The translations under genes and the position numbers were made by a program. Under the pieces are notes generated by a model, which worked only from the letters and a program-made list of their open reading frames with translations, was not told the origin of the DNA and ran no database searches. A stretch of DNA of 58,615 nt, from positions 1 to 58,615 of the IMG/VR virus record IMGVR_UViG_3300043015_001060. One strand, given 5' to 3'. Every line of letters begins with the position of its first letter. Positions within the stretch are counted from its first letter, which is position 1. This DNA is from a virus. Of this stretch, positions 3 through 41,740 are shown one piece after another.

Positions 3-1931
3 AGTGATGACGTTGTACTAATTAATATTGGCGAAAAAAGTTTAGCAAAATACGGACAATATCCTTTTCCTAGACAATACTATGCTCAAATGGTAGTAGA
101 CGTTGCTATAAAGAATGGTGGTGTTTTAGGTTGGACAATTATGTTTCCTGAAAAAGATAGATTTCAAGGAGATGAAAGTTTTGCAGGTATGATGAGTCAG
201 AACGTAATGAACGTTCCAGGTGCTAGAAAAAATCCTGTAAACTATAATGTACTAAGTCAAACTCCAAGTGTAAAAGGAACAAAAAGTACAGGTCCGCATA
301 TAGGCACAGGCACAATTGGTCCAGTTCCTGCAAAAGACTATTTGCTTACTTGGCCCAACTTGGTTACTAATGTTCCAATGCTAGAAGTTACAAGTAATGG
401 TAAAGGTGTAAATGCATCAGCACCACAACCAGATAATCAAACAAGAACATATCCATTAGCAATTACTGTGGGAGATAAAATATATCCCTCTTTTGCTGTG
501 GAAATGTTAAGAGTCAAAACAGGTAAACCTAGTTACATAATTAAGACAAGTGAGATAGGAATACAAGAAGTTGCTGTTCCACCATTTGACCCAATAGTAA
601 CACAACCAAACGGAACTGCATACATACGTTTTAATAATACATTTACTGAAATAGAATACGAAGGTGCAGAAAGCATACCAGATTTAGCAGGCAAATTTGT
701 TATAGTAGGTGTTACAGCAGAAGGCATTGCAAACCCTGTGCCTACACCAAGAGGAAATCTATATCCACAGCATATACAAGCACACATGCTACAAAATTTT
801 ATTGATGGTTCAAATATACAGCGGAGCCAGTTTGCGTCGCTTGTAGAGGTTCTTATAGCATCTGTGACTATGTTATTAATTGCATTAGCAGTATATAAAC
901 TTCCTTTACTATGGACAGCACCAATAAGTTTAAGTATTTTAATAGGTATTGTATATTTAAGTATAAAACAATATACTGGTAATCTAGTTTTATTAGACGC
1001 AACATTTCCTGTATTGAGTGGTTTCCTTGTATTCACACAGGCGGCATTTAATAACTTTTACAAACAGTTTAAATTACGTGAACAAATCAAGAAACAGTTT
1101 GAACACTACCTTGCTCCAGCAATGGTTAAAAAGTTACAAAAAGATCCAAGTCTATTACGTTTAGGTGGTGACACAAGAACAATGACATACTTGTTCTCAG
1201 ACATTCGTGGATTTACTCCTATATCGGAACAATTTAAAACAGACCCACAAGGTTTAGGTAAACTCATAAACAGATATATGACACCAATGACTGATTTAGT
1301 TATGCGTAAAGAAGGAACAATAGACAAGTATATAGGTGATGCCTTAATGGCTATATGGAATGCTCCACTTGATGTAGATAATCATGCTCAGTTGGCAATA
1401 GAGACAGCACAGGAAATGGAAGTAGAACTTAAAAATCTTAATAAAGACCTTAAAGAAGACGGACTTATGGAGTTAGGTGTCGGTATAGGTATTAATACAG
1501 GCGATGCAGTAGTAGGTAATATGGGCAGTAACCAACGATTTGATTACACAGTATTAGGTGATAGTGTAAACTTAGCGGCAAGACTAGAAGCACAAACAAA
1601 AGAGTATGGTGTCTTCTTTATGTTTACAGAGCATACATTAAACCAAATCACAACTCCAGAAAACTTAACAATGCTAGACAAAATTGCAGTCAAAGGTCAA
1701 ACAGCACCTGTAACAATTTACACTATATTAAAAGACCATAAGTATGCAAGAGTTGTAAATAGGATGGTTGATAGTTATCAAAACAGAGCATGGGCCGAAT
1801 GTGCAAATCAAATAGAAATTATTAAAGAGCACAACTGGAATAATACATTAGCAGAACTTTATGCAGACAGGATAAAACAACCTATGCCTAAAGGTGAATG
1901 GGACGGAGTAGAACGAAAGACTAGTAAGTGA
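3..1931 (+). CDS. CHASE2-domain class III adenylate cyclase (5' end outside window)
   Basis: The reading frame is open from base 3, so the start lies upstream; an internal ATG at 90 is not the true start. The first visible residues (DDVVLINIG, then YGQYPFPR) look like the core of a CHASE2 extracellular sensor domain. Three hydrophobic segments follow at about nt 840-1060. The C-terminal part (about nt 1185-1735) is a class III nucleotide cyclase domain. It has the two metal aspartates (FSDIRGFT and IGDALMAIW), the adenine-selecting Lys and Asp (DKYIGD, DYTVLGD), and the transition-state Asn/Arg (VNLAARLE), so it should make cAMP. The expected topology is an inner-membrane protein with a periplasmic sensor. 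Such regulators are normal in bacteria but unusual in a lytic phage. Family assignment is firm; role in infection is unknown. Confidence 0.9.
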   Translation, partial: SDDVVLINIGEKSLAKYGQYPFPRQYYAQMVVDVAIKNGGVLGWTIMFPEKDRFQGDESFAGMMSQNVMNVPGARKNPVNYNVLSQTPSVKGTKSTGPHIGTGTIGPVPAKDYLLTWPNLVTNVPMLEVTSNGKGVNASAPQPDNQTRTYPLAITVGDKIYPSFAVEMLRVKTGKPSYIIKTSEIGIQEVAVPPFDPIVTQPNGTAYIRFNNTFTEIEYEGAESIPDLAGKFVIVGVTAEGIANPVPTPRGNLYPQHIQAHMLQNFIDGSNIQRSQFASLVEVLIASVTMLLIALAVYKLPLLWTAPISLSILIGIVYLSIKQYTGNLVLLDATFPVLSGFLVFTQAAFNNFYKQFKLREQIKKQFEHYLAPAMVKKLQKDPSLLRLGGDTRTMTYLFSDIRGFTPISEQFKTDPQGLGKLINRYMTPMTDLVMRKEGTIDKYIGDALMAIWNAPLDVDNHAQLAIETAQEMEVELKNLNKDLKEDGLMELGVGIGINTGDAVVGNMGSNQRFDYTVLGDSVNLAARLEAQTKEYGVFFMFTEHTLNQITTPENLTMLDKIAVKGQTAPVTIYTILKDHKYARVVNRMVDSYQNRAWAECANQIEIIKEHNWNNTLAELYADRIKQPMPKGEWDGVERKTSK

Positions 1932-30826: not shown

Positions 30827-31288
30827 ATGGCTACCCATTACAATAAAATTGTTCAAGACTTAGGTAATATAGTTCCGGCGATCGAGTATTACGAAAAAGA
30901 ACTTGATGATGCTAGATGGGAAGTCAAAATTAAAGGGAGTTTAGAAAAGGCCTCTTCTTCACTACCCGGATTGACCGAGTATCGCTTTAATCAACTACAA
31001 GAGATTGAAGCGATACTTGAGCATTTAAATATTGAACTTAGGCGAGAACGTAGTAAAGTATTTAGAAAATATTTAGAAAGTTACAATAGAACACTTAGTA
31101 GTAGAGATGCAGATAAATTTGTAGACGGTGAAGATAGTGTTATTGATCTAACTCACCTTGTAAACCAATTTAGCCTTTTACGAAATAAATATCTAGGCAT
31201 AATGAAAGGATTGGATACTAAACAATGGCAGATAGGACACATAACGAGATTGAGAACAGCGGGAATGGAAGACATAGTGATCGACTAG
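30827..31288 (+). CDS. uvsY: UvsY recombination mediator
   Basis: A 153-residue helical protein resembling UvsY of T4-like phages. It keeps helix segments such as YEKELDDARWEVKIKGSLEKASSSLPGLTEY broken by short loops, a basic central helix (RRERSKVFRKYLESY) and a terminal GLDTKQWQIGHITRLRTAGMEDI. It loads UvsX onto gp32-covered ssDNA. Directly downstream of uvsX. Confidence 0.8.
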   Translation: MATHYNKIVQDLGNIVPAIEYYEKELDDARWEVKIKGSLEKASSSLPGLTEYRFNQLQEIEAILEHLNIELRRERSKVFRKYLESYNRTLSSRDADKFVDGEDSVIDLTHLVNQFSLLRNKYLGIMKGLDTKQWQIGHITRLRTAGMEDIVID

Positions 31289-32427
31289 ATTCTCCTAAAC
31301 GTCATTTTGTAAATTATGATATTATAAATTGTCAAGAGCGAGTATGGGACAATTTTGAAGATTTTACAAAAACTTTTCGTAAAGACATAGATCAAAAATT
31401 AAGCGAGTTAGAGTCTCCTGAATATCTTTTTATAAAATTTTTATATTCTTGTGAAGCATCTAAATTTCTAATTAACGGCGAATGGTTTCCTAGAGCAATA
31501 CACAATTTTTCAAACGACACAGGCATACCATTAGAAAATATTACATTCACTTCAGGTAATTTAAAATTCAAAGAATCATATGATAGATGGCATTCACTTT
31601 ATGTGCCTAATGACAAAAAGTTTAATTGTGAATACTATAATTTTGGTATTTGGTTATATTCAAAAGGCCATGTTCATCATGATAAACTTGTTTATAGTTC
31701 TGACCCAATAGATATCAAACGAAGTTTTAGATTTAATTGCTTAAATGCAAATATGTTAAAACATAGACAAGTGTTTATGTTAAAACTTTTTGAAAGTGGT
31801 ATTTTAACCCAAACATTTTTAAATAACAATATTACAAGTTTTCATTATTGGCATGATGTAGATAATATGTTTCCATTACCAGAAAAGTTATTAGAAATGT
31901 TGCCTATACAGTATGATTTAAAAGGAGATTGGCAACAAGTGTTCGATCAAATTTTTCATATAGAAACTGATATGAATGGCACTGATTTTAATAAAACTGG
32001 TGATTATAGATACATATATGATAGGTCATATATAACTATTACCACTGAAAGTGGTGAATGCCATGGGAATCTTGATGTTTGTAATGATGAAAAACTAGAT
32101 AACTATTTTAGGCCTTTTCATAGAGAAACATTTTTAACTGAAAAAAGTACACGACCAATGTTAAATTTACATCCTCAAATAATTTATTCTGGTGCAGGTA
32201 CATTAGAATATTATAAAGAAAAAGGGTTTAAAACATTTAGTAATTATTGGAACGAAGACTACGATAATGAAGAAAACGGTGAACGTAAATTACAAATGAT
32301 AATTGATCTCATCAATGAATTAAACAACAAACATATAGATGAGATACACGAAATGTATTGGGACATGATGCCTATATTAAAACATAACCAAAAACATTTA
32401 ATTAATATGGATTTAAAGTATCAATGA
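31225..32427 (+). CDS. Glycosyltransferase-like protein, relative of the 7072 gene
   Basis: A 400-residue protein whose C-terminal part (FLTEKSTRPMLNLHPQIIYSG, then LEYYKEKGFKTFSNYWNEDYD) looks like a nucleotide-sugar-binding C-terminal region, similar to the protein at 7072. The ATG at 31225 lies 64 nt inside uvsY behind an AAAGGA; no later ATG gives a better start near the uvsY stop. Modification of a glycan or of DNA is possible; unproved. Confidence 0.55.
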   Translation: MADRTHNEIENSGNGRHSDRLDSPKRHFVNYDIINCQERVWDNFEDFTKTFRKDIDQKLSELESPEYLFIKFLYSCEASKFLINGEWFPRAIHNFSNDTGIPLENITFTSGNLKFKESYDRWHSLYVPNDKKFNCEYYNFGIWLYSKGHVHHDKLVYSSDPIDIKRSFRFNCLNANMLKHRQVFMLKLFESGILTQTFLNNNITSFHYWHDVDNMFPLPEKLLEMLPIQYDLKGDWQQVFDQIFHIETDMNGTDFNKTGDYRYIYDRSYITITTESGECHGNLDVCNDEKLDNYFRPFHRETFLTEKSTRPMLNLHPQIIYSGAGTLEYYKEKGFKTFSNYWNEDYDNEENGERKLQMIIDLINELNNKHIDEIHEMYWDMMPILKHNQKHLINMDLKYQ

Positions 32428-33012: not shown

Positions 33013-33052
33013 ATAACTATATTTTAAATTAATGCTGTGGGAGGCAATCAAT

Positions 33053-34072
33053 ATGAAATCATTTGTTAAAATTAAAAAAGGTACTTACCGTAATGCACCT
33101 ATTAAAGATGCGGTTTTTCCAGTAGTTAAGCCACTTTCATTTGGTAAGAAAGGACCGTTTGTAACGGTTGATGGTTCTGCTTTAATGGGCAGTACTGCTA
33201 AAAAAATTAGAGTGTTAGTAGCATCACCATTAGATGTAACACCTAGTTCACAGGAAGAATACAAATCCTTGATGCCAGTTAAGGAAACTACTAAGAAAAA
33301 AGAAACTCCAGAACAGGCTATGGATAGAATCAAAGGTCGTTTTGAAGTATTAGATAAGATGACCGATGCAGTTGCTAATGGTAATGTAAGAGGACTTATT
33401 GTTAGTGGTCCTCCAGGAGTTGGTAAAAGTTTTGGTGTAGAAACTATACTTGATGAGTATGAAGCAATGGCTAAATTATCAGGTCAGTCTAGAACTGAAA
33501 TGGTAAAAGGTGCAATGACACCGATTGGGTTATTTCAAACATTATTTAATAATTCGAATGCAGGAGACATTCTTGTATTTGATGACTGCGATAGTATTTT
33601 ATTTGATGAAGTTTGTTTAAACATGCTTAAGGCTGTTTTAGATTCTGGTAAAAAGAGAACTATTACTTGGAAAGCAGAGTCTAACGTTTTAAGAAGAGAA
33701 GGTATACCTGAAAGATTTGATTTTAAGGGTGGTTGTATTTTTATTACTAATGTCAACTTTGAAAATGTTAGAAGTAAAAAGATCAAAGATCACTTAGACG
33801 CACTTATGTCAAGGTGCCATTATTTAGATTTAGGTATGGACTCTACAAGTGATAAGTTCTTAAGAATTAACCAAATCGTTAGAGATGGTATGCTTAAAGA
33901 ATACGGATTCAGCAAAGAGTTCGAAAAAGAAATCATAGACTTTATGGTTTTGAAAAGTGCTAGACTTAGAGAGATAAGTTTAAGAATGGTACTAAAAATT
34001 GCTGACTTGGCTAAGATGGATTTCGATAATTGGAAATCAATTGCTGAGTCAACATGTATGAGACGTTCATAG
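33053..34072 (+). CDS. AAA+ ATPase of unknown role
   Basis: A 339-residue protein with Walker A GPPGVGKS, Walker B ILVFDDCDSILF, a sensor-1-like CIFITNVNF and an Arg-rich C-terminal helix. ATG 33053 is chosen for its GGGAGG Shine-Dalgarno; an in-frame TTG at 33032 is less likely. It has its own sigma70-like promoter and ends in an intrinsic terminator, making it a single early transcription unit. It is not the clamp-loader gp44 by pattern; a chaperone-like remodeller is possible. Confidence 0.85.
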   Translation: MKSFVKIKKGTYRNAPIKDAVFPVVKPLSFGKKGPFVTVDGSALMGSTAKKIRVLVASPLDVTPSSQEEYKSLMPVKETTKKKETPEQAMDRIKGRFEVLDKMTDAVANGNVRGLIVSGPPGVGKSFGVETILDEYEAMAKLSGQSRTEMVKGAMTPIGLFQTLFNNSNAGDILVFDDCDSILFDEVCLNMLKAVLDSGKKRTITWKAESNVLRREGIPERFDFKGGCIFITNVNFENVRSKKIKDHLDALMSRCHYLDLGMDSTSDKFLRINQIVRDGMLKEYGFSKEFEKEIIDFMVLKSARLREISLRMVLKIADLAKMDFDNWKSIAESTCMRRS

Positions 34073-34119: not shown

Positions 34120-34153
34120 GAAACCCTCAAATTTATTTGGGGGTTTCTTTTTA
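34120..34153 (+). terminator. Intrinsic terminator after AAA+ ATPase gene
   Basis: A 13-bp stem (GAAACCCTCAAAT/ATTTGGGGGTTTC, one G-T pair) with a 2-nt loop and a T run. Confidence 0.9.
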
Positions 34154-34161
34154 TAAAACTC

Positions 34162-34189
34162 TTGACAATACTTAAAAGTCATGTATAAT
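34162..34189 (+). promoter_or_regulatory. Sigma70-like promoter for TonB-dependent receptor
   Basis: TTGACA, 16-nt spacer, TATAAT, directly behind the terminator. Confidence 0.85.
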
Positions 34190-34225
34190 TAGTACTTAAT
34201 GAACTATATCTTTTTTTGGAGAAAT

Positions 34226-35965
34226 ATGAATAAATTAGATAAGAACTTTCATATCAATATGTCTCCTTTATATTTAACATTTGTTTTCATGATTTTTATG
34301 TTATGGGCAAGTGAAGTAAAAGGCGATGAGATAGAAGAAATTATTGTAACTGCTCAACAAGAGGAAACTGTGGTAGCAAATCCTGTTACATCAAGTAGCC
34401 TTATTAGTGCAATACAAGAAGACTTTACATACTCACAAGGTGGATATGGTGGTTTTGTAGGCTACAATGAGCGAGGTGCTCAAACAATACATACATCAGT
34501 TTATGTAAATGGTATACCAGCAAATGGCACAGGCAGTGGTTGGTATGATTTTGGACACGATTTTGCAAGTGGACAAACTGTAAAGGTTATTTCAGGTGCA
34601 AACGGAGTGTTATATGGCTCAGGTAGTATTGCTGGTGCAATACTTATTACTGATACAATTGATAGCGGTTTAACAGTACGGCTCGAAGACGATATAAAAT
34701 TTGCCAGAGTTGCACCTACTGATTCAATTGAATTTAGTATGATAAACGATGGCATGGATAGTGTTCGCAACGACAATGATGAAGAAGACAGTTACAAAAA
34801 TAAAACTGCAAGGTTTGATGTTGATGCTGGAGACTTTAATCTAGTAGGCAAATATACAGATTACGAATATGATTATGACAACTGTTATACTTCAAGTTTC
34901 TCTCAAAGCAATGACTGTTTACAAGACGGCGAACGTTACAATGTTGCTATTAGAAACAACATACTAACATTAGGTAGAGCATACGAAAAATCAGAATACT
35001 TTACTGAAGGTGATTCAACATACGTGAATGAAAACTATAGAGACTTTCTTAGAGTTGGTAAGCAAATGATTCTAAGTAACAAACTAAATGTTACATACGG
35101 TCTAGATGCAGAACAGCAACACTATAAAACATCATCTCCTTATAGTTCAAACATATATGAAGATGAGAACTTTGCTGTATTCATGTCTGCTAATGCTGAC
35201 TTTGTAATGAGTTACAACTTTGGATTTAGACTAGGTAACGATGATCAAAATGCTCTTAGACTTGGTATTGAAAATGGACCATGGTATTTTAACATTGGTG
35301 ACAGTTTTAGAAAACCTAACTTGTATGAAAAGTTTGGTGATGCCTATGTCGATGGCGACGAAGATCTAAAGCCTGAAGAAGGTATTGGATATGAATTAGG
35401 CTTTGGCGTTATGAGTTTATTTAGATATGAGTTCGATGAAACAATTGAGTATGTAGCAGGATATTCTACTACTGTAGTTGTAGAACCAGAAGTAAGTGTA
35501 ACAGATCCTGACACAGGTGAAGTTACTGTAACACCTGCTGTAACAGAAGATGTGTACACAAATGCCACGTACGCAAATGGTGGTGATTACATCACACAAG
35601 GTTTTAGATTTGCTAATAACTTTGGACCAGTGTATTTAAGTTTAAAGTATACAGATACTGAACAACCTAGAGTACCAAAAATATCAGGTGCTGTACAATA
35701 CAGTAAAGATGTTTATGGTGTAAATCTTAGAATTAAGTATGCAGTACAACTAGATAGAGAACCTAGTCAATATGATGTACTACCAGAAGGACAAACAAAG
35801 TTAGATGATCTTAAGAAGTTAAATTTTTATGCTACTAAAGATTTCAATAACGGATTTGTTTTATCGTTTAAGGTAGAAAATATCACAGACGAAGATGTTG
35901 AAGTAGTTCCTTTCTATGGAGTTGAAGGTACTGAATATTATTTGACATTAGGCTATAAGTGGTAG
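34226..35965 (+). CDS. TonB-dependent outer-membrane receptor encoded by the phage
   Basis: A 579-residue protein. A hydrophobic signal-like segment (PLYLTFVFMIFMLWASEVKG) is followed by a TonB-box-like EEIIVTAQ. A plug domain follows with VKVISGANGVLYGSGSIAGAILI, then a beta-barrel with PNLYEKFGDAYVDGDEDLKPEEGIGYELGFG. It ends with ENITDED...YYLTLGYKW, terminating in the aromatic residue used by barrel-assembly machinery. It would sit in the host outer membrane. ATG 34226 is chosen for its TTGGAG; an upstream in-frame ATG at 34199 has none. A sigma70-type promoter (34162-34189) suggests early expression. Highly unusual in a phage. Confidence 0.88.
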   Translation: MNKLDKNFHINMSPLYLTFVFMIFMLWASEVKGDEIEEIIVTAQQEETVVANPVTSSSLISAIQEDFTYSQGGYGGFVGYNERGAQTIHTSVYVNGIPANGTGSGWYDFGHDFASGQTVKVISGANGVLYGSGSIAGAILITDTIDSGLTVRLEDDIKFARVAPTDSIEFSMINDGMDSVRNDNDEEDSYKNKTARFDVDAGDFNLVGKYTDYEYDYDNCYTSSFSQSNDCLQDGERYNVAIRNNILTLGRAYEKSEYFTEGDSTYVNENYRDFLRVGKQMILSNKLNVTYGLDAEQQHYKTSSPYSSNIYEDENFAVFMSANADFVMSYNFGFRLGNDDQNALRLGIENGPWYFNIGDSFRKPNLYEKFGDAYVDGDEDLKPEEGIGYELGFGVMSLFRYEFDETIEYVAGYSTTVVVEPEVSVTDPDTGEVTVTPAVTEDVYTNATYANGGDYITQGFRFANNFGPVYLSLKYTDTEQPRVPKISGAVQYSKDVYGVNLRIKYAVQLDREPSQYDVLPEGQTKLDDLKKLNFYATKDFNNGFVLSFKVENITDEDVEVVPFYGVEGTEYYLTLGYKW

Positions 35966-35971
35966 TATAAT
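35942..35971 (+). promoter_or_regulatory. Sigma70-like promoter for uvsW
   Basis: TTGACA, 18-nt spacer, TATAAT inside the end of the receptor gene; uvsW ATG is 5 nt downstream. Confidence 0.75.
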
Positions 35972-35976
35972 AAATT

Positions 35977-37434
35977 ATGGGTAAATGTGTTTTAGAAATT
36001 AGAGACGAAGTAAATGTTCGTTTCACAGGACTTGATGTTAAAACAAGGCGTAAAATTTCAGATGAAGTAAAATACTTTTTACCTTATGCCTATCATATGC
36101 CTGCTTATAAATTGGGCAGATGGGACGGCTGTATTAGATATTGTGATATAGGCGGTAGAACATATTTTCATTTATTAGAAAGATTACTGCCTATTGTTAC
36201 TGGTGACGGATACGAAATAGAAGTAGTTGACAACAGAACAAAATGGGATTTCAGTTTTACTTCTGTAAAACAAGATAGTTATAGTCACGTAACTTGGCCT
36301 AAAGGTCATACTGTAGCAGGAACACCAATTCAGTTAAGAGATTATCAAGTAGATATTGTAAATAAATTTTTAGAAAATCCACAATGTTTACAAGAAATTG
36401 CCACAGGTGCAGGTAAAACTCTTGTTACAGCAGTACTTAGTGAAAAATGTGAGGAGTACGGCAGAACAGTAGTTATTGTACCTAACAAAGATCTTGTTGT
36501 GCAAACAGAAAAAGATTACAAAAACTTAGGACTTGACGTAGGTGTCCTTTATGGCGACAGGAAAGAGTATGACAAAACACATACAATTTGTACATGGCAA
36601 AGTTTAGCAGTATTAGAAAAGAAAACTAAGTCATATGAAGCAGAAGTAGACATTGATGTATTCTTAGATAACGTTGTTTGTGTAATGGTCGACGAAGTTC
36701 ATAAGGCAAAAGCAGATGTATTACAAAAACTTCTTAGCGGAGTGTTTGCCAATGTCCCTATTAGATGGGGACTAACTGGCACTATACCAAAAGACGAACA
36801 TGAAGCAATTGGTTGTTTGGTGAGTTTAGGCCCAGTTGAAGGTAAGATGAGCAGTAAAGAATTACAGGATATGGGTGTACTAGCAGATTTAGATATTACT
36901 ATTCTACAACTACAAGATGGAATGATGGGATTCAGCACATACGCACAAGAACTTAAATGGTTAGTTACAGACCCAAAAAGAATAGATCAGTTAAGTAACA
37001 TTATCTCAGGCTATGCTAATAACGGTAATACACTAGTTCTTATAGATAGAATTGCTACAGGAGAAATGTTAGCAGAAAGAAATAAAGATTGGGTTTTTGT
37101 AAGTGGGTCTATGAAGACTCAAGATAGACAAGATGAATATGCAGAAATCAGCGAAATGGATAATAAAGTCATTGTTGCTACATACGGTGTAGCGGCAGTA
37201 GGTATCAACATACCAAGAATATTTAATCTTATAATGTTGGAACCAGGTAAGAGTTTTGTGAGAGTAATACAAAGCATTGGAAGAGGTATTAGAAAAGCAC
37301 AGGATAAAGATTATGTCAATGTGGTTGACATAACGAGTAATTTAAAGTATAGTAAGAGACACTTGACTAAAAGGAAAGCCTTTTACCGAGAGCAGAATTT
37401 TAGACATACAGTAACTAAAGTGGAGTATAAATGA
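35977..37434 (+). CDS. uvsW: UvsW helicase
   Basis: A 485-residue superfamily 2 helicase: N-terminal domain, then Walker A ATGAGKT (about residues 142-148), DEVH box (CVMVDEVHKAK), GLTGT, and C-terminal motif VI (QSIGRGIRKA). It unwinds branched DNA and R-loops and switches origin to recombination replication. A TTGACA/TATAAT promoter overlaps the end of the TonB-receptor gene, with the ATG 5 nt after the -10 box. Confidence 0.93.
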   Translation: MGKCVLEIRDEVNVRFTGLDVKTRRKISDEVKYFLPYAYHMPAYKLGRWDGCIRYCDIGGRTYFHLLERLLPIVTGDGYEIEVVDNRTKWDFSFTSVKQDSYSHVTWPKGHTVAGTPIQLRDYQVDIVNKFLENPQCLQEIATGAGKTLVTAVLSEKCEEYGRTVVIVPNKDLVVQTEKDYKNLGLDVGVLYGDRKEYDKTHTICTWQSLAVLEKKTKSYEAEVDIDVFLDNVVCVMVDEVHKAKADVLQKLLSGVFANVPIRWGLTGTIPKDEHEAIGCLVSLGPVEGKMSSKELQDMGVLADLDITILQLQDGMMGFSTYAQELKWLVTDPKRIDQLSNIISGYANNGNTLVLIDRIATGEMLAERNKDWVFVSGSMKTQDRQDEYAEISEMDNKVIVATYGVAAVGINIPRIFNLIMLEPGKSFVRVIQSIGRGIRKAQDKDYVNVVDITSNLKYSKRHLTKRKAFYREQNFRHTVTKVEYK

Positions 37435-38815: not shown

Positions 38816-39589
38816 ATGTCAAAAAGAAAATTTAGAATAGAAGGCGGAAGATACGGAGGAGAACTTGTTTTAGGAGAAGTTAATCCAATATTTGCAAGTT
38901 ATTATGCAGAACTAGATGATACTAGTGAACTTATAGATGCAGTATTAGAATCAGAAGATTGGGAAGAAGGAGATGATAATTCAGATGCATTATTAGATCC
39001 TGAAGGTCCACCTCATCCTGCACTACCAGGTGAAGATTTTTATATGTGGGAAAACGATGAATTTGAACACATTAATAGTGCCTACGCAGATGGAGGCTTT
39101 ACAGTATATGAAGTTCCGGCAGATGGTTCCGATGATTGGGACTACGAAAATGAAGTATATGAAGGAGAAGCAATTCATGTTTATGGCAGAGAAGGCGGCC
39201 TCTTTAATACCGATGAAGAACCGGAAGTAATCAATGAAGAAGATGAAGACGGCAACAAATATGTGCCTGTTTTAATGTTCCACAGTTGTGAGAAAGGTTC
39301 TTTTGGTGCTTGGTTTGTAGAAACAGATGGCGAAGATTTTGATGAGTTTAAATTAGGTATGGGTGTAGTAGAAACAAATTTAGGTGAATTTGTTGATGCT
39401 GTATTTTACAATAAAGTAGAATTAGACTGTGATTACGATTACAATGACACTACCGGTAAAAGTTATGATGCACAAGTAGGTTGGTTAAATACTAAGTGGC
39501 ATGACAGTCAAGATCTTATTCATGAAAACTTAGATGAATACCTTGCAGAGTTTGACGATAATGCAGAATGGGAAAGAGAAAATAGATGA
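38816..39589 (+). CDS. Very acidic protein, 257 aa
   Basis: Except for a basic first ten residues, the protein is packed with Asp and Glu (for example EDWEEGDDNSD, INEEDEDG) through most of its length and has many Tyr and Trp. ATG 38816 is chosen for the CGGAGG upstream. Such charge can mimic DNA and inhibit DNA-binding host enzymes, but no known anti-restriction family is recognised. A structural or calcium-binding role is equally possible. Confidence 0.7.
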   Translation: MSKRKFRIEGGRYGGELVLGEVNPIFASYYAELDDTSELIDAVLESEDWEEGDDNSDALLDPEGPPHPALPGEDFYMWENDEFEHINSAYADGGFTVYEVPADGSDDWDYENEVYEGEAIHVYGREGGLFNTDEEPEVINEEDEDGNKYVPVLMFHSCEKGSFGAWFVETDGEDFDEFKLGMGVVETNLGEFVDAVFYNKVELDCDYDYNDTTGKSYDAQVGWLNTKWHDSQDLIHENLDEYLAEFDDNAEWERENR

Positions 39590-40386
39590 AAAGAATTTTA
39601 ATTTGTGGTTTACCTGGTTCAGGTAAATCTACTCTAGCAAAACGTCTTGTTGAAACATTAGGTAATGCAATGTGGCATAATGCTGATGATATCAGGGAAC
39701 TTTTTAATGATTGGGATTTTTCGCCGCAAGGTAGAGAAAGACAAATGAAAAGAATGACCGATTATTGTTTGAAAACTGTAGGTAATGGTAATTATGCTGT
39801 TGCTGATTTTGTTTGCCCTACTAATGAATTAAGAAGAAAATTTAATCCTGAGTATGTAATATGGATGGATACTATTGAAGAAGGTAGATTTGAAGATACA
39901 AATAAAATTTTTGAAAAACCAGATGCAACTATTAATGTAGATGTTGTAATTAGAAAAGAAGATTGGTGGACTCAAGAAGCAGTAGAAAAAATAGCAAGGC
40001 TAATTGCTGTAGATATAAAAGACCCTAATTTTCATCCTAAGAAACCTACTACCCAAATGCTAGGGCGATTTCAACCATTTCATGAAGGTCATAAAAAGTT
40101 ATTTGAAAGAGCATTAGCAAAACATGGCCAAGTGGCAATACTGGTCAGAGACATGCCTTTAAGTGATAGTAATCCCTGGACCCCTGAAGATATTTGTGAA
40201 AATATAGAACAAGAACTCTATGAACATGCAGGTAAATTTAGGTGCTATCCTGTGCCAAATATTATGAATATTACTTACGGCAGAGGCGTAGGTTATAAGA
40301 TTGAAGAGGAAGTTCTCGATGAGGAAACACAACAAATTAGTGCAACTAAGATTCGAGAGCAGATGAGAAAGGATGGAGAACTATAA
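39586..40386 (+). CDS. Kinase-nucleotidyltransferase fusion (APS-kinase-like N-terminus)
   Basis: A 266-residue bifunctional-looking protein. Residues 1-140 are a P-loop kinase (GLPGSGKS at 7-14) with NADDIRELFNDWDFSPQGRERQ, ADFVCPT and IWMDTIEEGRFEDTN, matching the APS-kinase-like family. From about residue 158, GRFQPFHEGH is a nucleotidyltransferase HxGH motif, closed by ISATKIR (the ISxTxxR lysine/arginine loop). Either PAPS-related or NAD-related chemistry is possible. A sulfotransferase-like protein is encoded nearby at 42259, which favours PAPS supply. Confidence 0.85.
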   Translation: MKRILICGLPGSGKSTLAKRLVETLGNAMWHNADDIRELFNDWDFSPQGRERQMKRMTDYCLKTVGNGNYAVADFVCPTNELRRKFNPEYVIWMDTIEEGRFEDTNKIFEKPDATINVDVVIRKEDWWTQEAVEKIARLIAVDIKDPNFHPKKPTTQMLGRFQPFHEGHKKLFERALAKHGQVAILVRDMPLSDSNPWTPEDICENIEQELYEHAGKFRCYPVPNIMNITYGRGVGYKIEEEVLDEETQQISATKIREQMRKDGEL

Positions 40387-40642: not shown

Positions 40643-41740
40643 ATGTATCAATTTACAAGTGAAAGTGTCAGTGAAGGGCATCCAGATAAAATAGCAGACT
40701 TGATATCCGATAAAGTAGCAACATACTTGCTGAATAATGAAATTAATAATAGGACAGCAATTGAAACGTTAGTTACAACCAATATGGTTACATTGGCAGG
40801 AGAATATAAAACTAATATAGAAGTTGATAATAACTACATAGACGAAATCGTTAGACAAACAGTTAAAGAAATAGGTTACGAACAAACAGGGTTTCATTGG
40901 AAGAATTTAAAAATCTATAATGAACTACATGGCCAAAGCGAAGACATTGCATTAGGTACAGACTCATTTGGGGCAGGCGATCAAGGAATAATGTTTGGAT
41001 ATGCATGTAATGAAAATGAACATTACATGCCATCACCACTAATATACTGTCATAAAATTTTAGAATCTTTAAGTGATAGTAGAAAAAATGATTCTGAATA
41101 TAGCATTATTAGACCAGACAGCAAAGCACAGATAACATTTAACTATGCAAATACAGGCGAACCTATCGACATTGATAAAGTATTAGTTAGTACTCAACAC
41201 AGCGAAGATAGTACACAGGATCAAGTAAAAGAACTAGTTCACAAAACAATTAGTAAAGTAGTACCAAATGAATTACTAAAAAATGCTGAGTACTTAATAA
41301 ATCCAACTGGTAGATTTGTTATCGGTGGACCAGATGGAGATACTGGACTTACTGGAAGAAAAATTATTGTTGATACTTATGGAGGAGCCGCACCTCATGG
41401 TGGCGGAGCATTTAGTGGTAAAGATCCTTCTAAAGTTGATAGAAGTGCGGCTTATATGGCTAGATGGATAGCAAAAAATATTGTTAAACGATATAATTTT
41501 AAGAATGTATTAGTTCAAATAAGTTATGCTATAGGAGTTGTGCAACCAACATCATTAGTAATCTTTACTGATGGTAAGATAAATGAAAATATAATCCAAC
41601 AGGTAAAAGATCAAGTAGATTTATCTCCGTTAGGTATTATACAAAGATTTGGATTAGGTTGTCCTACACCACTAGACATTAGTACTAACTATGGACATTT
41701 TGGTAAAGATCATTTACCATGGGAAAGAGATGATTTATAA
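40643..41740 (+). CDS. metK: S-adenosylmethionine synthetase
   Basis: A 365-residue MetK with all three family blocks: SESVSEGHPDKIAD (ATP site), GAGDQGIMFGYA (methionine-binding loop region), and GGPDGDTGLTGRKIIVDTYGG with GGGAFSGKDPSKVDRSAAY near the active site. It makes SAM from methionine and ATP in the cytoplasm. In this phage SAM could serve the radical SAM enzyme at 5754 or unseen methyltransferases. It overlaps an APRT gene downstream, which can salvage adenine. Confidence 0.97.
   Translation: MYQFTSESVSEGHPDKIADLISDKVATYLLNNEINNRTAIETLVTTNMVTLAGEYKTNIEVDNNYIDEIVRQTVKEIGYEQTGFHWKNLKIYNELHGQSEDIALGTDSFGAGDQGIMFGYACNENEHYMPSPLIYCHKILESLSDSRKNDSEYSIIRPDSKAQITFNYANTGEPIDIDKVLVSTQHSEDSTQDQVKELVHKTISKVVPNELLKNAEYLINPTGRFVIGGPDGDTGLTGRKIIVDTYGGAAPHGGGAFSGKDPSKVDRSAAYMARWIAKNIVKRYNFKNVLVQISYAIGVVQPTSLVIFTDGKINENIIQQVKDQVDLSPLGIIQRFGLGCPTPLDISTNYGHFGKDHLPWERDDL

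Follow-up and report, generated by a model that had tools for sequence, protein, structure and literature searches.

It is close to certain that the product of the gene at positions 34226–35965 of the window, by which we mean the whole 58.6-kb virus record analysed here, with its T4-like genes, is a phage-encoded TonB-dependent receptor. The family to which it belongs is BtuB-like, which is new in the present analysis. The best reading of its function, to which we assign a probability of roughly 0.55, is that of a deregulated corrinoid (B12) importer working with the TonB of the host; this reading is drawn from homology, and the ligand is inferred.

The receptor gene and its predicted product

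The features of the locus used below are as follows (window positions, strand):

33032–34072, +: AAA ATPase gene (phrog_1250), conserved left neighbour, adjoining the receptor gene in 83 + 14 of 159 fetched relatives
34120–34147, +: intrinsic terminator (12-pair stem, then a T-run) separating the AAA gene from the receptor unit
34162–34189, +: sigma70-type promoter TTGACA-16-TATAAT, 12/12 match
34218–34221, +: Shine–Dalgarno GGAG for the ATG at 34226, read directly in the sequence
34226–35965, +: BtuB-like TonB-dependent receptor gene, 579 aa, ATG start, no internal stops
34226–34324, +: putative signal peptide, residues 1–33 (helix 3–30 in the AlphaFold2 model; AxA-type junction in relatives)
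34331–34357, +: Ton box IEEIIVTAQ, residues 36–44, conserved in a 37-sequence alignment
34394–34639, +: Plug domain match (PF07715), residues 57–138
34667–35956, +: predicted 22-strand beta-barrel, residues 148–577 (AlphaFold2; Foldseek BtuB)
34760–34783, +: predicted extracellular loop L2, acidic cluster SVRNDNDE, mean column identity 0.87
34877–34918, +: predicted extracellular loop L3, invariant DNC...C with two invariant cysteines (residues 220 and 231)
35942–35971, +: perfect promoter for uvsW by sequence match, overlapping the 3' end of the receptor gene
35977–37434, +: UvsW-type helicase gene, conserved right neighbour (phrog_16, E=2e-74)
40643–41740, +: S-adenosylmethionine synthetase (MetK) gene, relatives found mostly alphaproteobacterial

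The only Pfam match in the receptor is the Plug domain (E=4.5e-7; 30.8 bits, passing the cut-off of 23.9), and its PHROGs match, phrog_5687, is of unknown function. The plug is also the most conserved region of the protein, with 25 invariant residues between positions 63 and 147; the segment GANGVLYGSGSIAGAI corresponds to residues 124–139. At the N-terminus, a hydrophobic segment and an A-x-A before D/S are conserved in the alignment; no signal-peptide predictor was run. The Ton-box-like EEIIVTAQ occupies residues 37–44, and across the 37 sequences the Ton box has a mean column identity of 0.77 with three invariant residues (E37, E38 and V41), compared with 0.56 for the adjacent linker. The protein ends in ...YKW, with the aromatic W579 as its last residue. 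Using the family alignment (37 rows, 37 members) as input, AlphaFold2 returned a model in which a helix at the N-terminus and a plug are followed by 22 consecutive barrel strands (pLDDT 79.9, pTM 0.76), a number that we counted ourselves from the listed elements after merging two split strands. The sequence-only reading had proposed a complete phage-encoded TonB-dependent receptor and had named a structure prediction without a 22-strand barrel and plug as grounds for refutation. As the model contains both, the proposal survives, and domain content, fold, synteny and purifying selection all agree with it. Insertion of the receptor into the outer membrane and TonB-energised transport are inferred.

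Kinship with BtuB

A Foldseek search of the PDB with the receptor model placed E. coli BtuB first (E=1.3e-18, 17% identity), with TM scores of ~0.6–0.7 over the BtuB entries. Among viral predicted structures, the sole strong full-length match, at 11% identity, was an 805-aa BFVD entry, a SusC-type receptor from a marine phage that is uncultured. The profile of the 37 phage members likewise matched BtuB over its full length in the PDB (E=4.5e-10), followed by haem receptors at 0.007. The NCBIfam TonB-B12 model was matched by 26 of the 37 members (best 2e-13), and haem models were the next family matches, with TIGR01786 matched by 23 of the 37. Against the same TonB-B12 model, which is the BtuB equivalog, the receptor itself scores 26.9 bits, far under the cut-off of 599.7; the riboswitch-linked bacterial BtuBs described below, at 121–327 bits, also remain under it.

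Across 399 genomes, a cobalamin or AdoCbl-II riboswitch lies just upstream of 15 of the 19 nearest bacterial receptors, versus 4 among 32 further receptors of these genomes (Fisher p=3e-6), and these four control receptors are BtuB-like themselves. Profile–profile comparison of the phage family with the riboswitch-linked bacterial BtuBs gave E=1.9e-41 (1.7e-32 and 1.8e-22 with five-sequence subsets), whereas five control receptor groups reached 2.8e-15 at best. Every riboswitch-linked receptor, also the four that were not picked by similarity, scores above every non-linked control. A phylogenetic tree splits the phage receptors together with the BtuBs from 28 controls (SH-aLRT 99). The tree first suggested that the phage clade is nested inside bacterial BtuB, but this was not upheld by an AU test, which did not reject a placement of the phage receptors outside it (p=0.79 for bacterial BtuB alone). 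The phage clade may thus be sister to bacterial BtuB rather than a part of it, so a drift of ligand is possible. Taken together, the BtuB-like ancestry of the phage receptor is well supported.

In its general build, the phage receptor shares with BtuB (E. coli 1NQE/1UJW; TIGR01779), its best match by both profile and fold, the plug and 22-strand barrel, the type of Ton box, the acidic loops L2 and L3 and a similar length (579 aa against 594–614 aa). The acidic cluster of L2 aligns near an Asp-rich loop of E. coli BtuB, and the acidic clusters in L2 and L3 lie at places matching the Asp-rich loops of BtuB, while the exact residues differ. In BtuB, Asp residues of L2/L3 bind Ca2+. The phage receptor differs from BtuB in its low identity, its score under the equivalog cut-off, its location in a phage, its sigma70 promoter, the absence of a cobalamin riboswitch and the two invariant cysteines around L3, and its relatives carry an optional ~80-aa L5 and long L8 inserts.

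Two observations bear on the host. In one 1.2-Mb genome, in which the GC content of the locus is 27%, a BtuB-like gene stands behind an AdoCbl-II riboswitch; it is the genome's only Plug match and the nearest row to the phage clade in the tree (with a support of only 91 and a long branch), making this genome a possible lead to the host lineage without any host assignment. The phage MetK is nearest to those of alphaproteobacteria at ~47–53% (SAR116, 53%; Sphingomonadales; Pelagibacteraceae), and this kinship is again a lead to the host, not an assignment.

Residence in a phage lineage and expression control

The nearest isolates of the window phage are PA5oct-like jumbo phages (terminase 59%, tail sheath 47%), T4-like phages represented by Pseudomonas phage PA5oct (286 kb), yet these have no receptor match. 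One viral contig of 339,794 bp runs broadly collinear with the window and carries a receptor of 43% identity at the same place. Relatives are encoded on at least 263 viral contigs, with two scans giving 128 and 263 encoding stretches, and the family is phage-specific as far as searched. We fetched 159 loci, which by our own count come from 113 distinct contigs, and a phage neighbour stands beside the receptor in 159/159. The order AAA–receptor–UvsW is found in 83 loci and in further, truncated ones, UvsY–receptor–AAA in 8 and UvsY–receptor–UvsW in 5; in another 35 loci the receptor follows an MTA/SAH-nucleosidase-like gene at a baseplate site far away. Looking from the uvsW side, 78 related uvsW loci extend far enough upstream to be judged; 68 of them carry the receptor, and the remaining 10 are empty sites with AAA and UvsW only ~110 bp apart.

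Several minor observations concern these neighbourhoods. A 400-aa gene of no known family (window 31225–32427, +) lies between UvsY and AAA in some relatives only and is matched weakly and in part elsewhere in related genomes, at unlinked positions. At the alternative baseplate site of one relative, the nucleosidase-like gene (L012, 7453–7998, +) immediately precedes the receptor, and the 339-kb contig has a similar gene ~4 kb away from its receptor. We also considered whether the adjoining AAA gene is a CobS, which would give a B12 gene pair; this was rejected, as only weak RFC matches were found in NCBIfam.

Outside the phage contigs, no relative turned up in a pattern scan covering 84,980 species of bacteria and archaea. 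Nor did the family profile find one, at E≤1e-20 and 1e-15, in 399 Pseudomonadota and in 385 genomes belonging to a single class (784 in total); in comparable searches, phage members score between 1e-220 and 1e-304. The cut-offs of 1e-20 and 1e-15 are too strict for the nearest bacterial receptors, and the phylum search was repeated at 1e-8, which yielded the 19 receptors described above. Among 50,697 phage records, the window protein as query had no match at E≤0.01, and a distant family member brought up nothing beyond remote BtuB-like or partial matches, of which the best two came from records titled as Salmonella genomes. The sequence-only reading had remarked that phages rarely encode such receptors, which is true of isolates, with no match in these records, and untrue of this lineage, in which most related uvsW loci are occupied. 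Since the family is absent from the phage isolates searched, standard annotation misses it.

TonB-dependent receptors are abundant bacterial genes, and the locus could in principle be a recent bacterial gene or an assembly chimera with no function in the phage. We regard this as next to impossible, as relatives occur on so many viral contigs, always beside phage neighbours and at a few fixed positions (113/113 inspected contigs), as close bacterial relatives are missing from the searches above, strict as the profile thresholds were, and as 14/14 phage rows fall in one clade of the tree. Contig chimerism around 34–36 kb, which had been named as a further ground for refutation, is excluded in particular by a gene order shared by dozens of independent contigs and the 339,794-bp contig.

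The receptor gene had also been credited with its own early promoter and with insulation by a terminator. The perfect sigma70 promoter bears out the former, and a promoter of at least 11/12 is found in 28 of 43 related loci versus 0.6% of shuffles, but 'early' is only inferred from its host type. As for the latter, the terminator upstream separates the receptor unit from the AAA gene, but none was found in the 11-bp gap between the receptor and uvsW. No cobalamin riboswitch was found in the window or in 13 related phage loci. From the presence of the promoter and the absence of the riboswitch, we infer expression by the host RNA polymerase without repression by B12. Members at the baseplate site are without such a promoter; by inference, they probably share the transcript of the nucleosidase gene.

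Proposed function and rival explanations

In the proposed mechanism, the host RNA polymerase would transcribe the receptor gene of this jumbo T4-like phage early after entry from its strong sigma70 promoter, the phage copy being without the cobalamin riboswitch by which bacterial btuB genes are repressed. The receptor would be exported and would fold into the outer membrane of the host, where the plug apex and loops L2, L3, L7, L9 and L10 may form a pocket that binds a corrinoid (cobalamin, that is B12, or a close relative). The TonB of the host would energise the receptor through the Ton box; no tonB was found in the related phage records, so the host's protein would be needed. The supply of the cofactor in the infected cell would then go up, serving corrinoid or SAM metabolism of host and phage. 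The ligand, the pocket, the timing and the benefit are all inferred, and the evidence for the ligand is entirely by homology, at ~17% identity to BtuB. Regarding a use of the vitamin by the phage, a radical SAM protein that includes a B12-binding domain is encoded in one related phage genome, a weaker match occurs in another, and the window itself encodes MetK. A B12-dependent class II ribonucleotide reductase was considered and rejected, as only the class I (diiron) NrdA/NrdB was found; B12 would thus not serve dNTP synthesis of the phage.

Purifying selection (dN/dS 0.08–0.37 in 13 receptor pairs) and the conserved Ton box argue for working transport. The predicted extracellular loops are about as conserved as the strands (0.68 versus 0.63), and only L5 and L8 are hypervariable, with strong length and sequence differences between members. 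In three relatives (L013, L044 and L045), the receptor is 51–59% identical to that of the window, whereas most neighbouring genes are 92–100% identical. L013 is a clean recombinant of a window-like and the L045 allele: its 5' part is mostly 96–100% window-like through the upstream gene, the promoter and the signal/Ton-box end, and from ~100 bp into the receptor gene onward, covering plug and barrel, it is 96–100% L045-like. Such allele swapping fits a pressure on the surface part, be it from the choice of ligand or from rival phages or bacteriocins using such receptors. As a separate observation, the receptor N-termini (alignment columns 1–37) carry either a conserved extended n-region, DKNFHxNFSPLY, or an unrelated-looking MEEFFHKH..., two signal-peptide types that are swapped independently of the mature part.

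The sequence-only reading had listed superinfection exclusion, import of iron or vitamins and replacement of the host receptor as possible functions. Vitamin import is the item we favour, given that the closest bacterial kin of the phage receptor are of BtuB type and controlled by cobalamin riboswitches. The receptor could instead be a working TonB-dependent importer that is BtuB-like by descent only and takes up another scarce ligand, such as a ferric siderophore, haem, another metal complex or an organic nutrient. We consider this unlikely, yet a possibility to be taken seriously: whether the phage clade belongs inside or beside bacterial BtuB is unresolved, the family matches that come next are haem-receptor models, the class I ribonucleotide reductase of the phages is iron-dependent, and L5 and L8 vary strongly. 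Against it, BtuB leads by many orders of magnitude in profile, profile–profile and riboswitch-context comparisons, and the conserved acidic L2 and L3 are similar to the Asp-rich loops of BtuB.

Competition between phages offers another explanation, namely that superinfecting phages or bacteriocins are kept out or misled by an altered or replaced set of host receptors, transport being of lesser importance or lost. The receptor as an outlier amid largely 92–100% identical stretches in the three relatives is in line with this, as is the recombinant, since swapping of this kind is typical of surface targets. The same swapping is also expected for a transporter exploited by rivals, however, and an extra receptor by itself means more attachment sites, not fewer. 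Moreover, conservation extends to the Ton box, the plug and most of the predicted extracellular loops, which match the strands in this respect, and the gene is under purifying selection. We find this explanation doubtful; superinfection exclusion is neither shown nor excluded, and remains possible with less support than corrinoid import. A wider scenario, speculative and on present evidence improbable, is that an uncultured marine jumbo-phage lineage has long kept and diversified a vitamin receptor of its own, importing corrinoids that the riboswitch of an uninfected cell would refuse, and that its surface is reshuffled between phages because rivals exploit the receptor. In that case, the receptor would at once be a vitamin importer of the outer membrane that arose by evolution in phages and an arena of conflict between phages.

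No published phage-encoded BtuB or BtuB-like phage family was found in the literature searched, with most subscription journals outside its scope. The marine megaphage Mar_Mega_1 encodes a TonB-dependent receptor proposed to raise nutrient uptake (PMC9723777), which resembles the present case in occurring in a marine jumbo or mega phage but is of SusC type and belongs to a different family. For the pelagiphage Polarivirus skadi, a TonB-dependent receptor was reported and read by the authors as a hint to the adsorption receptor (PMC10504331); this too is a receptor-like gene in a marine phage, but the phage is podovirus-type and the gene lies among virion genes. Viral auxiliary genes such as cobS and cobT are thought to boost the supply of cobalamin (PMC12965618, PMC13079714) through biosynthesis or conversion, while the BtuB-like receptor would serve uptake at the outer membrane. 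The known viral vitamin genes act intracellularly, whereas the receptor would act at the entry point of scarce cofactors. If import of B12 is true, these viruses override a vitamin-sensing switch and tap a vitamin that limits many ocean microbes; if competition drives the diversity, the family is a testable case of a phage altering the receptor landscape of its own host.

Further genes were noticed beyond the receptor locus. At window 90–1931 (+), a CHASE2 sensor is joined to a class III adenylate/guanylate cyclase (Pfam 1.9e-16 and 1.5e-19), so that a phage gene couples a membrane sensor to a second-messenger cyclase; a homologue of 50% identity is present in the 339-kb contig. The gene at 39586–40386 (+) fuses a P-loop kinase-like with a cytidylyltransferase-like domain and is possibly involved in NAD metabolism. 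Two contigs carry single ORFs of 7,093 aa (G001, 25142–46423) and 7,041 aa (G002, 50105–71230) beside the baseplate gene gp6.
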